Positions 51,888 through 57,269 of a stretch of 64,000 nucleotides of DNA are shown piece by piece. The notes beneath the pieces are model-generated. The model worked only from the letters and a program-made list of their open reading frames with translations, was not told the origin of the DNA and did no database searches. The stretch is from the NCBI GenBank assembly GCA_949297075.1, contig CASFRX010000049.1, positions 1 through 64,000 of the forward strand, written 5' to 3'. Both the position numbers and the translations under genes were made by a program. Source of the stretch: an uncultured Oscillospiraceae bacterium. GTDB lineage: Bacteria > Bacillota > Clostridia > Oscillospirales > Acutalibacteraceae. Each line of letters opens with the position of its first letter. Position 1 is the first letter of the stretch.

Positions 51888-52523
51888 ATGGCTTTTGATT
51901 ATTCCGTAACCCGAGACAGAAAGTTTTGTAAATTTGCCAGAATTCCGGGTCGGCTTTATCTGCATTCATATCTCAGAATTAAAAGCGTAGGTTTAGAAAA
52001 TGTTCCCAAAGAAGGCGCATTTATTGTAGCCTGCAACCATATTAACTATGTAGACCCGGCTCTCCTCCTTGCAAAATGCCCCCGTCCCATTCACTTTATG
52101 GCTAAGGCAGAGGCGTTTAAAAATAAGATTGCTGCATGGGCTTTGACTCATTGCAACGCATTCCCCGTGAGCCGAGGCAGAAGTGATAAATCTTCCATTG
52201 AATATGCGATTAAGCTTATCAATGAAGGCAAGGTTATCGGCATATTCCCTGAGGGCACACGCTCAAAGGATTTAAAGCCCCATGAGGCGAAAGCAGGCAT
52301 ATCTCTCATTGCAAAGCAGACTAAGGCGGATATTCTGCCCTGCTCCATATATTGTGAAAAGAAAAAAGGCTTCCGGCGCAAGGTCACCATCCGTTACGGC
52401 GAGCTTATTAAGTATGAAGACCTCGGCATTACCGAGGAGGGCAGCACAAGAGAGCTGAGAGAAGCCGCAAAAAAGGTCATGGATAAAATCGTTGACCTTT
52501 GGGAGGAAGGACATTGCGAATAA
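51888..52523 (+). CDS. plsC: 1-acylglycerol-3-phosphate acyltransferase
   Basis: A 211-residue PlsC. Catalytic NHxxxxD motif ACNHINYVDPALL, the FPVSRGR block and FPEGTRSKD. It adds the second acyl chain to lysophosphatidic acid at the membrane. The start is ATG 51888 after AAGGAG, one base past the cmk stop; the longer upstream frame overlaps cmk and is rejected. The end overlaps the ispH start by 10 bases. Confidence 0.93.
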   Translation: MAFDYSVTRDRKFCKFARIPGRLYLHSYLRIKSVGLENVPKEGAFIVACNHINYVDPALLLAKCPRPIHFMAKAEAFKNKIAAWALTHCNAFPVSRGRSDKSSIEYAIKLINEGKVIGIFPEGTRSKDLKPHEAKAGISLIAKQTKADILPCSIYCEKKKGFRRKVTIRYGELIKYEDLGITEEGSTRELREAAKKVMDKIVDLWEEGHCE

Positions 52524-54643
52524 CTCTTGCCAAAACAGCGGGCTTTTGCTTTGGCGTAGACAGAGCGGTGGAGCTTGTTTATTCCCTGCTCGGTCAGGGG
52601 AAAAAGGTTTGCACCTTAGGTCCGCTAATCCACAATCCTCAGGTTATATCCGATTTGGAGCAAAAGGGTACACGCATTATAGATGTTCCGTCGGCGGCGG
52701 CTCAGGATGAAACCCTTGTTGTCCGTGCTCACGGTGTAACTGCAGCAGTTGAGAACGAGATAGAGCAAATGGGGCTTGAGTTTTGCAACGCAACTTGCCC
52801 CTTTGTTAAAAAAATACACAAAATCGTTTCCGAAAAGCCGGATGAAAATTCAGTTGTGCTCATTGCAGGGGATTCAAGGCATCCCGAAGTGCAGGGCATA
52901 GTGGGTCACTGCAAATGTGAAAGCATAGTTTTCGGCAGCTTAGAGGAATTGGAAAATATTGTAAAAAACCGTTCCGATTTGCACGAAAAAAGGATTTTAT
53001 TCGTTGCACAAACAACTTTCAGCACAAAAGAATGGAATTTGTGTGAAAAAAAGATTAAAAAACTCTATACAAATCCGATTATTTTTGATACAATATGCTC
53101 GGCAACGCATGAAAGGCAAAAGGAAGCCTACGAGCTTTCTCTCGTCAGCGATGCAATGGTTATTGTCGGCGGCCGTCAAAGCTCAAACACGGCAAAACTT
53201 CAAGCTGTGTGCGAACCCAACTGCAAAACCTACCTTGTGGAAAACGCAAGCGAGGCGGCGCAGATTGATTTTACAGGCTGCAGCAATGTTGGCGTTACTG
53301 CAGGGGCGTCTACCCCTGCCGGTATAATAAAGGAGGTACTACAAACCATGTCTGAAAACACAAACGAAGCAAAAGTTCAGTCTGAGATTGACGCTCTCCA
53401 GGCTGAGGTTGAGCAGGTACTTAACCCCGCTCAGGAGGCAGTTGGTCAGGATTCGGCAAAAGCCGAAGAAGCTGCTATTGAGGAGGCCCCCAAGAAGTCA
53501 TTTGATGAAATGACCTTCCAGGAAGCTCTTGAGGAATCCCTGAAAAGCATGAGCACCGACCAAAAGGTTCGTGGTATCGTTGTTGGCATTTCACCGAGTG
53601 AGATTCAGGTAGATATTGGCCGCAAGCAGACCGGCTATGTTCCCATCGATGAATATAGCAACGATCCTACGGCAGACCCTGCTAAGGAGCTCAAAATCGG
53701 TGACGAAATTGATCTTATCATCATGAAAACAAACGACGCAGAGGGTACAATGATGCTTTCAAAGCGCCGTTTCGACGCTACAAAGGCTTGGGCTGATATT
53801 TGTGCGGCAGAAGAGAGCGGCGAAGTTCTCGAAGGCACAGTGTGTGAAGTTATCCCCAACGGCGGCGTTCTCGTTGCCTGCAAGGGTTCCCGTGTCTTTA
53901 TTCCCGGCTCACATACAGGTCTCTCCAAGGATGAACCCCTTGAGTCACTTCTCAAAACAAAGGTTCAGTTCAAGATTATCGATGTTAATAAGCAGCGCAA
54001 GCGTGCTGTCGGTTCAATTCGGGTCGTTGCTCGTGAAGCTCGCAAGGAGCTTGCTAAGGCATTTTGGGAGAATGCAGCCGAAGGTCAAGTTATTACCGGC
54101 ACTGTTAAGTCTCTCACAAGCTACGGCGCATTTGTCGATATCGGCGGCGTAGACGGTATGGTTCACATTTCCGAGCTCAGCTGGAAGCGCATTAAGCATC
54201 CTTCAGAGATTGTCAATGTCGGCGATACTGTTGAAGTTTATATCAAGAAGCTTGATGCTGAAAACAAGAAGATTTCCCTCGGCTACAAGAAAGTTGAGGA
54301 CAATCCTTGGGAGATTATGCGCCGCGATTATCCCGTCGGCACAGTTTGCAAGGCTAAGATTGTCGGCATGACAACTTTCGGCGCATTTGCAAATGTTATC
54401 CCCGGCATCGACGGACTTATCCATATTTCTCAGATTGCTGACCGCCGCATCAACAAACCCGAAGATATTCTTACAGTCGGCGAAGAGGTCGATGTAAAGG
54501 TTACTGAGATTGACTTTGATAAGAAGCGTGTAAGCCTTTCAATCCGTGCCCTCATCGAGCCCGCCGCTGAAGAAGCAGCTGAGGCTGTTGAAGAAGCACC
54601 TGCAGCAGAAGCTGCGGAGGCAACAGAAGAGGCAGCAGAATAA
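52514..54643 (+). CDS. ispH: IspH-ribosomal protein S1 fusion (HMBPP reductase plus four S1 domains)
   Basis: A 709-residue two-part protein. Residues about 1-275: IspH, the last MEP-pathway enzyme, with the 4Fe-4S Cys in AGFCFGVDRA, CNATCPFVKKIH and DTICSATHERQ, and the catalytic-site VRAHGV, HPEVQG and QTTFS motifs. Residues about 350-690: four S1 RNA-binding domains (e.g. SYGAFVDIGGVDGMVHISELSW, FGAFANVIPGIDGLIHISQI), then an acidic tail. IspH-S1 fusions are known in Clostridia. Start chosen: TTG 52514; the TTG at 52499 lies before the GGAGG. Within the gene, AAAGGAGG (53329-53336) precedes an in-frame ATG (53348), offering separate S1 synthesis. Confidence 0.95.
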   Translation: MRITLAKTAGFCFGVDRAVELVYSLLGQGKKVCTLGPLIHNPQVISDLEQKGTRIIDVPSAAAQDETLVVRAHGVTAAVENEIEQMGLEFCNATCPFVKKIHKIVSEKPDENSVVLIAGDSRHPEVQGIVGHCKCESIVFGSLEELENIVKNRSDLHEKRILFVAQTTFSTKEWNLCEKKIKKLYTNPIIFDTICSATHERQKEAYELSLVSDAMVIVGGRQSSNTAKLQAVCEPNCKTYLVENASEAAQIDFTGCSNVGVTAGASTPAGIIKEVLQTMSENTNEAKVQSEIDALQAEVEQVLNPAQEAVGQDSAKAEEAAIEEAPKKSFDEMTFQEALEESLKSMSTDQKVRGIVVGISPSEIQVDIGRKQTGYVPIDEYSNDPTADPAKELKIGDEIDLIIMKTNDAEGTMMLSKRRFDATKAWADICAAEESGEVLEGTVCEVIPNGGVLVACKGSRVFIPGSHTGLSKDEPLESLLKTKVQFKIIDVNKQRKRAVGSIRVVAREARKELAKAFWENAAEGQVITGTVKSLTSYGAFVDIGGVDGMVHISELSWKRIKHPSEIVNVGDTVEVYIKKLDAENKKISLGYKKVEDNPWEIMRRDYPVGTVCKAKIVGMTTFGAFANVIPGIDGLIHISQIADRRINKPEDILTVGEEVDVKVTEIDFDKKRVSLSIRALIEPAAEEAAEAVEEAPAAEAAEATEEAAE
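53329..53350 (+). promoter_or_regulatory. Internal ribosome-binding site and in-frame ATG at the IspH/S1 junction
   Basis: AAAGGAGG, 11 bases, ATG (codon 279 of the fusion). The ATG opens MSENTNEAKVQ, the start of the S1 part, after the IspH end STPAGIIKEVLQT. It is the strongest Shine-Dalgarno of this cluster. Confidence 0.7.
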
Positions 54644-54756: not shown

Positions 54757-54785
54757 TTGCCATAATCTGTAATAGGTGTTATAAT
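54757..54785 (+). promoter_or_regulatory. Promoter of the polar amino-acid transporter
   Basis: TTGCCA, 17 bases, TATAAT. Confidence 0.7.
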
Positions 54786-54816
54786 GCTTGTAATAAAAAA
54801 TAGGAGGTATAATCCC

Positions 54817-55707
54817 ATGAACAAAAAAACATTAGCTAAAGTTCTCAGCGTTGTTCTTGCGCTCGTTCTCGGCCTTACAGCTCTGTGGGCTTGCGGCGGC
54901 AACGATGAAGACGGCGATGCACCCGTAGAGCCTGCTGCACAGGCAGTAAAGGTTATTGATATTGCCCTTACAGAAGAAGAATACGCTTTCGGTGTTGATA
55001 AAGCTCAGCCTGAACTTCTTGAACAGGTAAACGCTTTCATCGCAGAAATCAAGGCAAACGGCAAGTTTGACGAAATCTGCAACAACTACTTTGGTGACGG
55101 CACACCCGTTGCTGTTAAGTCAGCTAAGCTTGACGACTCTAAGGATCAGCTTGTTGTTGCTACAAACGCAGCTTTCGAGCCCTTTGAGTACACAAAAGGC
55201 GAAGATTACTACGGCATTGATATGGAAATTGCAGCTCTCCTTGCAGAAAAGCTCGGCAAAGAGCTTGTAATCAACAATATGGATTTCGATTCAGTTTGCC
55301 TTTCCGTTGGTCAGCACAAGTGCGATATCGCTATGGCCGGTCTTACCGTTAAGCCCGATAGAGAAGAGTATGTAACTTTCTCTACAAGCTATTACGAGGC
55401 TTCTCAGAAGCTCATCGTTAAGGGTGACGACGCTGCTTTCGATGCTTGCACAGACGCAGCTTCCGTTGAAGCAATCCTTAACTCACTTGATTCAACAACA
55501 AAAATCGGTGTACAGAACGGCACAACTGGTCAGTTCTATGTAGAAGGCGATGATGATTGGGGCTTTGACGGCTTCGCAGCATCCTGCGTAGGCTACAAGA
55601 GTGGTTCCCTTGCTGTTCAGGATATGATTAACGGCAACATTTCCTATGTTATCATTGACTCTGCACCTGCAGCCTGCATTACCGAAGCTATTAACGAAAT
55701 GGCATAA
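54817..55707 (+). CDS. Polar amino-acid ABC transporter binding lipoprotein, circularly permuted
   Basis: A 296-residue lipoprotein (signal then LTALWACGG, lipid Cys 26). Family 3 binding proteins normally run from the ATNAAFEPFEY strand to a C-terminal LTEEEYAFGV-type helix pair. Here that normal C-terminal module (VKVIDIALTEEEYAFGV ... ANGKFDEICNNYFGDG, residues 44-95) comes first, right after the anchor; the usual N-terminal part (QLVVATNAAFEPFEYTKG, about 111) follows, and the protein ends at IIDSAPAACITEAINEMA, exactly where the missing module would attach. It looks like a clean circular permutation. First gene of the operon, AGGAGG before ATG 54817. Confidence 0.9.
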   Translation: MNKKTLAKVLSVVLALVLGLTALWACGGNDEDGDAPVEPAAQAVKVIDIALTEEEYAFGVDKAQPELLEQVNAFIAEIKANGKFDEICNNYFGDGTPVAVKSAKLDDSKDQLVVATNAAFEPFEYTKGEDYYGIDMEIAALLAEKLGKELVINNMDFDSVCLSVGQHKCDIAMAGLTVKPDREEYVTFSTSYYEASQKLIVKGDDAAFDACTDAASVEAILNSLDSTTKIGVQNGTTGQFYVEGDDDWGFDGFAASCVGYKSGSLAVQDMINGNISYVIIDSAPAACITEAINEMA

Positions 55708-55720
55708 TTAAAACCGAAAT

Positions 55721-55771
55721 CGGCTGTTTCAAAGTGGCGTAACAGCAACTTTGCAAGCAGCCGTTTTTTTT
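55721..55771 (+). terminator. Terminator/attenuator between binding protein and permease
   Basis: CGGCTG pairs with CAGCCG, with an inner CAAAGT/ACTTTG stem, followed by eight T. It would raise binding-protein levels over the membrane parts. Confidence 0.85.
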
Positions 55772-55786
55772 CTGTGAGGAAAATAT

Positions 55787-56494
55787 ATGAAAATTCAAAA
55801 GATGATAGACAAGTTCTTAGAAGTGCTGATTGATTATAAGGGCTATGTCAAGGTGCTGGAAGGACTTGAAAACACGATTAAAATTGCTGTTATCGGTCTT
55901 ATCATAGGCGTTGTTATCGGCACGCTTATAGCGACTGTCCGAGTTATTCCGAAATACAAGGTACTGCCTCGTATACTTAACGGCATATGTTCCTTTTATG
56001 TCGGATTTTTCAGAGGCACGCCTATGGTAGTTCAGCTGTTGGTTTTTTACTATGTTGTTTTGCCGCTCCTTGGCCTGAAATTTCCGTCGGTTACGGTTGC
56101 TATTGCAGTATTCGGACTTAACAGCGGTGCCTACATCTCGGAAATTATGCGAGGCGGCATCCAAAGCGTTGATTACGGTCAGATGGAGGGCGGCAGAAGC
56201 GTTGGCTTAAGCTTCGGCACAACAATGATGCGCATTGTTATTCCTCAGGCTGTTAAAAATATTTTGCCTTCCATGGGTAACGAGTTTATTGCTCTTATCA
56301 AAGAAACCTCCGTTGTTTCGTTCATAGGCGCAACAGACCTTTATGTTGCCTTTAACTATATCGGGTCGAACAGCTACGAGTTTATGGTTCCATATCTGAC
56401 AATGGCAATTATTTACATAGTGCTTGTTTGCCTTATTACCCTGTTGATTAAGATTATGGAAAGGAGCCTGAACAAGAGTGATAGACGCAGTTGA
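55787..56494 (+). CDS. Polar amino-acid ABC transporter permease
   Basis: A 235-residue HisM/GlnP-type permease with five membrane helices: [18 protein letters not shown] at the start, [41 protein letters not shown] (the EAA loop contacting the ATPase), then [20 protein letters not shown]. Its end overlaps the ATPase gene by 17 bases. Confidence 0.95.
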
Positions 56495-57269
56495 CCTGAA
56501 AAAAAGTTTCGGTAAAAATGAAGTTCTTAAGGGCATTACAACCACTATCAACAAAGGTGATATCGTTGTTGTTATAGGCCCCTCCGGCTCAGGAAAAAGC
56601 ACATTCCTGCGCTGCCTTAACTGTATGGAAGACCCTACAGGCGGCAAGATAATATTCAACGGCGTTGATATAGCCGACCCAAAGGTTGATATTAATATCC
56701 ACCGCCGCCGTATCGGCATGGTGTTCCAGCATTTCAATCTGTTTAACAACAAAACCGTTATTCAGAATATTATGCTTTCTCCTGTCCTGTGCGCAAAACA
56801 GGATAGGCGCAAGGCTATAATGAAAAACCTCTTTTCAAAGAACAAGGAGCCTGTAAAATCCGTTGCTCAAATCAAAAAAGAGGCAAGAGAAAATGCCGAA
56901 AAGCTCCTTGAGCGCATAGGCTTGTCCGAAAAGGCAGATGTTTATCCCTCTACTCTTTCCGGCGGACAGAAGCAGAGAGTTGCCATTGTTCGCTCCCTTG
57001 CCATGAATCCTGATGTTATCCTTTTCGATGAGCCTACCTCTGCCCTTGACCCCGAAATGGTTGGCGAAGTATTGGAGCTGATGAAGGACCTTGCAAACGA
57101 GGGCATGACTATGGTTATAGTAACCCACGAGATGGGCTTTGCCCGCGAGGTTGCAACCCGTGTGCTGTTTATTGACGAGGGCGTCATCATGGAGGAGGCC
57201 ACTCCTCAGGAGTTCTTTTCCAATCCCAAATGCGACAGACTTAAGGATTTCCTTTCAAAGGTTTTATAA
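56478..57269 (+). CDS. Polar amino-acid ABC transporter ATP-binding protein
   Basis: A 263-residue HisP/GlnQ-type ATPase: Walker [17 protein letters not shown]-loop MVFQHFNLF, signature LSGGQKQR, Walker [15 protein letters not shown]-loop VTHEMGFA. There is an unusual Lys-rich insertion of about 25 residues ([20 protein letters not shown]) between Q-loop and signature. It starts with GTG 56478, 11 bases after AAAGGAG. Forms the importer with the two preceding genes. Confidence 0.95.

Follow-up and report, generated by a model that had tools for sequence, protein, structure and literature searches.

Does the family-3 solute-binding protein (SBP) encoded at 54817-55707 of the 64 000-nucleotide stretch analysed here (the window) keep the usual order of its lobes, or has its chain been circularly permuted, as an earlier note on this DNA had proposed? 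The open reading frame runs on the + strand from the ATG at 54817, is coding to 55704 and closes with the stop codon 55705-55707 (296 amino acids). It begins with a signal peptide and lipobox (54817-54894, +; L-W-A-C with Cys26), recognized from the sequence and from the nucleotide identity of the leader to that of congeners; frame, coordinates and lipobox had been read correctly in the note. PF00497 (SBP_bac_3) matched the protein with 104.4 bits against a curated cut-off of 26.4, which places it in the family. This match was split into two stretches, and in a whole-genome profile scan positions 97-131 of PF00497 lay upstream of positions 1-97, which is not the canonical order lobe1N - lobe2 - lobe1C. 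Of the cut-offs that NCBIfam sets for its named equivalogs (those for GlnH, ArtJ, HisJ and LAO), none was reached, the best being TIGR01096 with 100.4 versus 256.35; the permutation may explain scores below these cut-offs.

The permutation-aware alignment suggested at the time as a check confirmed the rotation. A profile built from 21 canonical proteins gave two separate matches to the core of the window protein (159.5 and 40.6 bits), which became a single continuous match of 206.9 bits once the core was re-ordered to the canonical order. When the module was shuffled as a control (n = 300), the score stayed at 159.5 ± 1.6 bits, with a maximum of 169.5. Run on mature forms that carry long lipid spacers, doubled-sequence tests missed some proteins of the order lobe1C - lobe1N - lobe2 (CP1), including that of the window, and the trimmed core was used instead. 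Conversely, a CP1 profile made from 51 permuted homologues matched AncQR (4zv1) in two complementary pieces in swapped order: chain residues 10-174 corresponded to profile positions 69-247, and residues 183-233 to positions 3-53 (i-E 8e-8 for this second piece). In a phmmer search of the PDB, the matches to AncQR, ArgBP and GlnPQ again fell into two stretches in swapped order.

These alignments delimit the parts of the chain. The module that is C-terminal in canonical proteins (module c, residues 43-94; 54943-55098, +) is now N-terminal and consists of the last lobe-2 strand, the second hinge strand and the lobe-1 C-terminal helix pair, as judged by its matches to PF00497 positions 97-131, AncQR 183-233 and canonical-profile positions 205-253. 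The earlier note had this module at residues 44-95, directly after the lipobox; its position was borne out, but its limits are 43-94, and a spacer of ∼16 residues separates it from the lipid cysteine. A new linker, GTPVAVKSAKLDDS (residues 95-108; 55099-55140, +), runs from the former C-terminus to the former N-terminus; it is not present in canonical proteins, is kept within the CP1 group close to the window (CP1a) and is dissimilar in other permuted lineages. The remainder, lobe 1N plus lobe 2 (residues 109-296), comprises the lobe-1 N-terminal part with the first hinge strand and the carboxylate-binding Arg182 (piece a, residues 109-202, end approximate; 55141-55422, +), followed by lobe 2 with Thr236-Thr237 and Asp281 (piece b, residues 203-296; 55423-55704, +). 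Every part is single-copy, in agreement with the claim that no duplication is present, and no second copy of the module was found at the C-terminus, where the stop codon is followed by a hairpin. The chain had been thought to end at the strand that normally leads into the module. The module is indeed gone from that end, but the last element there is the lobe-2 helix preceding this strand, and the strand itself (VKVID) has been relocated with the module to the N-terminus. The protein thus shows all features of a circular permutation: its parts are homologous to those of the parent, none is repeated, their order is rotated, and a linker bridges the former termini.

The gene lies in an operon of the PAAT type. 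It is preceded by a σ70-like promoter (54757-54785, +; TTGCCA, 17 nt, extended TG, TATAAT) with 11 of 12 consensus matches, whose TTGC and TATAAT blocks are conserved in congeners at the same locus. A strong hairpin followed by a T run (55721-55764, +) separates the SBP from the permease gene; the region 55708-55786 has a folding energy of -27.7 kcal/mol (z -4.5), and the hairpin is likely to be a partial terminator that keeps the SBP transcript in excess. A promoter and an SBP/permease hairpin of this kind typically accompany an SBP that is produced in excess of its transporter. Downstream are the cognate permease, assigned by profile (55787-56494, +; PF00528, HEQRo 3TM family, above the TIGR01726 cut-off), and the cognate ATPase (56478-57269, +; PF00005, closest to GlnQ/TcyN). 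The order SBP-permease-ATPase was found at 53 of 55 CP1 loci, the two exceptions being a contig end (L056) and an SBP-permease fusion (L071). A motif scan located the Arg after the G-L/M-T turn, and the Thr loop and Asp of lobe 2; Arg182, Thr236-Thr237 and Asp281, the amino-acid-binding residues of the family, are invariant in the 51 CP1 homologues. Judged from its sequence, the window protein is putatively the lipoprotein that binds amino acids for an ABC importer of the polar-amino-acid type, and the conserved order, intact operons and invariant ligand residues together indicate a working gene family.

The CP1 order is conserved in a clade of Clostridia, as emerged from the collection of homologues that had been recommended. 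About 26 of the 391 genomes drawn from the whole class carry CP1a (∼7%), as do 16 of 97 near relatives; in GTDB genomes it was present at ∼57 of the 60 loci recovered, mostly in Lachnospiraceae and Oscillospiraceae records. Some of these proteins are encoded on single-contig assemblies (G314, G438, G285). In the more distant groups CP1b, CP1c and CP1d the CP1 order could be read directly. A second permutant, CP2 (lobe2 - lobe1C - lobe1N), also occurs widely across the class (e.g. L025, L032, L091-L112, L134-L139), and CP2 proteins matching the L025 query over nearly the full length occurred in ∼22 of the 391 class genomes. By order, the single-unit reading frames comprised 95 CP1, 41 CP2 and 27 canonical proteins, in a set biased by the queries used. 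Permuted binding domains were also found fused to the permease in one polypeptide, in CP2 order (L101, L102, L103, L126) as well as in CP1 order (L071).

How the rotated chain folds was addressed by AlphaFold2, using an alignment of 51 homologues. The mean pLDDT was 95.5 and the pTM 0.85, with pLDDT ∼93-98 for the module strand, the hinge strand and the two helices (model residues 1-52). Only family-3 type folds were retrieved by Foldseek from the PDB; ∼181-185 of 256 residues superposed on glutamine-bound GlnBP at 2.4-2.6 Å, the module being left unaligned because this sequential aligner cannot reach the permuted part. No permuted structure was present among the best 50 Foldseek matches in the PDB, and a fold search against viral structures gave zero matches at E ≤ 0.001. 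A non-canonical packing of the module is disfavoured by the high pLDDT and pTM and by its homology to the C-terminal modules of solved structures. The module is predicted to pack in cis at the canonical lobe-1 site; the protein would then form a two-lobed trap of the usual kind, in which lobe 1 holds the junction of the former termini. A domain swap, with the N-terminal module packing on a neighbouring molecule and the order being kept for oligomer formation, would fit the attachment of the module through a conserved linker. In some members of the family the C-terminal helix is indeed displaced, and the closest folds include ArgBP of T. maritima, a swapped dimer. We nevertheless regard a swap as quite unlikely, given a monomer prediction that is confident throughout, module included, a short linker, and the location of both old termini in lobe 1. 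That the order is a product of misassembly or of a decaying pseudogene is hardly credible. The window contig does come from a 69-contig assembly, but dozens of independent species share the order, among them isolates (Mediterraneibacter massiliensis, Cuneatibacter caecimuris and Acetivibrio mesophilus) and the single-contig genomes, and these homologues refute a frameshift or misassembly; open frame, lipobox and promoter are all intact. A natural circular permutation, by contrast, is supported by sequence, alignment, the high-confidence predicted fold and > 90 homologues of the same order.

Did all permuted relatives descend from a single ancient event, followed by losses or reversals? Trees were calculated from pieces re-ordered to the canonical order, with the joining linkers excluded; they are unrooted, and their sampling followed the queries. 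The order labels needed 14 changes on a tree of 101 rows, and the well-supported branches alone required at least 4 for CP1 and at least 6 for CP2; nine changes were needed on a 54-row tree with full support values. A single clade was rejected for all CP1 proteins (p-AU 0.00016), for all CP2 proteins (p-AU 0.00064) and for CP1a, b and c together (p-AU 6e-5), while CP1b and CP1c as one clade, with a p-AU of 0.058, were not rejected. If the tree is rooted on distant canonical rows, the canonical Clostridia clade is surrounded by CP2 rows in a ladder-like series, so that some canonical proteins could be reversals, which would favour one permutation. On these unrooted trees, some returns to the canonical order may indeed have occurred. 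Several changes are required even when reversals are allowed, however; CP1b, CP1c and the CP2 proteins of G003/G010 adjoin different canonical proteins, and the joining linkers are unlike between lineages. A single origin is therefore unlikely, and CP1 and CP2 each arose more than once. The CP2-ordered L091 and L092 (with L093) are nested inside the CP1a clade and have left the lobe-2 entry helix at the C-terminus, which suggests that in these three an already permuted gene was rotated a second time. The predicted structure of L092 was not used (pLDDT 38, from an alignment of only three sequences).

Three arrangements coexist at one locus of the window's genus. Downstream of ispH-rpsA, the SBP is of CP1 order in the congeners G000, G007 and G009, canonical in G001, G004, G005, G006 and G008, and of CP2 order in G003 and G010, each binding protein being accompanied by its own permease and ATPase (54757-57269 in the window; loci L164-L172). 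The signal-peptide DNA of the window is 83-85% identical to that of the canonical G005, G006 and G008, versus 41-44% to that of the CP1 congeners, the bodies of which are 67-91% identical to the window's, depending on the piece. Leader and body thus have different nearest relatives, which fits a cassette exchange with its joint near the lipobox. Permutation in place at this locus was considered for the window and found unsupported: the permease is just 42-44% identical to those of the canonical congeners, and cassette replacement fits this low identity better. Amino-acid transporter cassettes with canonical, CP1 or CP2 binding proteins appear to be exchanged at this position behind ispH-rpsA. 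The upstream neighbour in the window (52499-54643) encodes IspH (LytB) and four ribosomal-S1-type domains fused in one 714-aa protein.

We put the probability at about 0.85 that the locus encodes a permuted importer subunit, of an order that is conserved in a Clostridia clade and has more than one origin. The permutation would probably have started with an in-frame tandem duplication of the SBP unit; the front of the first copy and the back of the second would then have been lost, and the signal peptide kept or re-attached. In the window lineage, the permuted body would have come to stand behind a canonical-like leader through cassette exchange. The CP1 profile gave a continuous match of 73.9 bits across the SBD1-SBD2 junction of GlnPQ (6h30), a phase that agrees with a CP1 unit being cut from a tandem repeat. 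Tandem (bca)n-permease proteins were found as well (L124, L128, L162, L163), 748-1224 aa long and each containing two to four units in the CP2 phase; all arrays among the reading frames collected were CP2-phase, with no tandem intermediate in canonical or CP1 phase. By analogy with the GlnBP fold, the CP1 and CP2 cuts would both lie in lobe 2 beside a hinge strand, which would take the lipid anchor off the lobe-1 N-terminus. The importer may still trap its amino acid between the lobes and hand it to the permease, with a lipid tether that would leave from lobe 2 beside the hinge; the altered presentation of ligand to the permease that the earlier note had suggested is one possible consequence. 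A broader idea, which we advance tentatively, is that the family-3 SBPs of Clostridia form a pool that is continually re-cut. At least two rotations, with the cut in front of lobe1C or of lobe2, would each have originated repeatedly, perhaps reversibly by way of tandem arrays; they would replace one another at the same operon sites, under selection for moving the anchor or the permease fusion from the lobe-1 end of the trap to its lobe-2/hinge end.

Among known systems, the closest in kind is Tp0684 (MglB-2) of Treponema pallidum, a natural circularly permuted lipoprotein for which the class 'Type Ic / Cluster Bc' was proposed; it is a sugar binder of Type I/Cluster B that has retained ligand binding and has Gram-positive relatives, and its authors suggested an adaptation to anchoring (PMC4990184). 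Both are permuted, lipid-anchored SBPs of ABC importers, but Tp0684 has another cut and a fourth crossover and is not homologous to SBP_bac_3 at the family level. The window protein does not belong to Type Ic / Cluster Bc: all its sequence and fold matches are to type II family 3. Its pieces are homologous to those of GlnH/GlnBP, HisJ, ArtJ and AncQR (PF00497, cluster F, type II), with which it also has ligand residues, operon and transporter family in common; it differs in its order lobe1C - lobe1N - lobe2 from these lobe1N - lobe2 - lobe1C proteins with the anchor at lobe 1N. GlnPQ has tandem substrate-binding domains (PMC8025302) and contains the lobe1C - linker - lobe1N junction used by the CP1 unit, but consists of two complete canonical domains fused to a permease, whereas the window protein is a single permuted domain. 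No published permuted protein of cluster F/type II was found in the open literature, and the type I protein Tp0684 is the only natural precedent found.

The permutation is real, conserved and recurrent in the window's family, which evolution has re-cut more often than reported so far; the recurrence of natural circular permutation within one family is rarely caught. The coexistence of three arrangements, even at one locus of a genus, provides a natural experiment on anchor position versus Venus-flytrap delivery to ABC permeases, and the proteins are natural templates for permuted amino-acid biosensors. Three further proteins of CP1 order (L131, L132, L133) belong to the distant IWNGM-type (cystine/arginine-like) subfamily, of which the window's genome carries a canonical member (L001).
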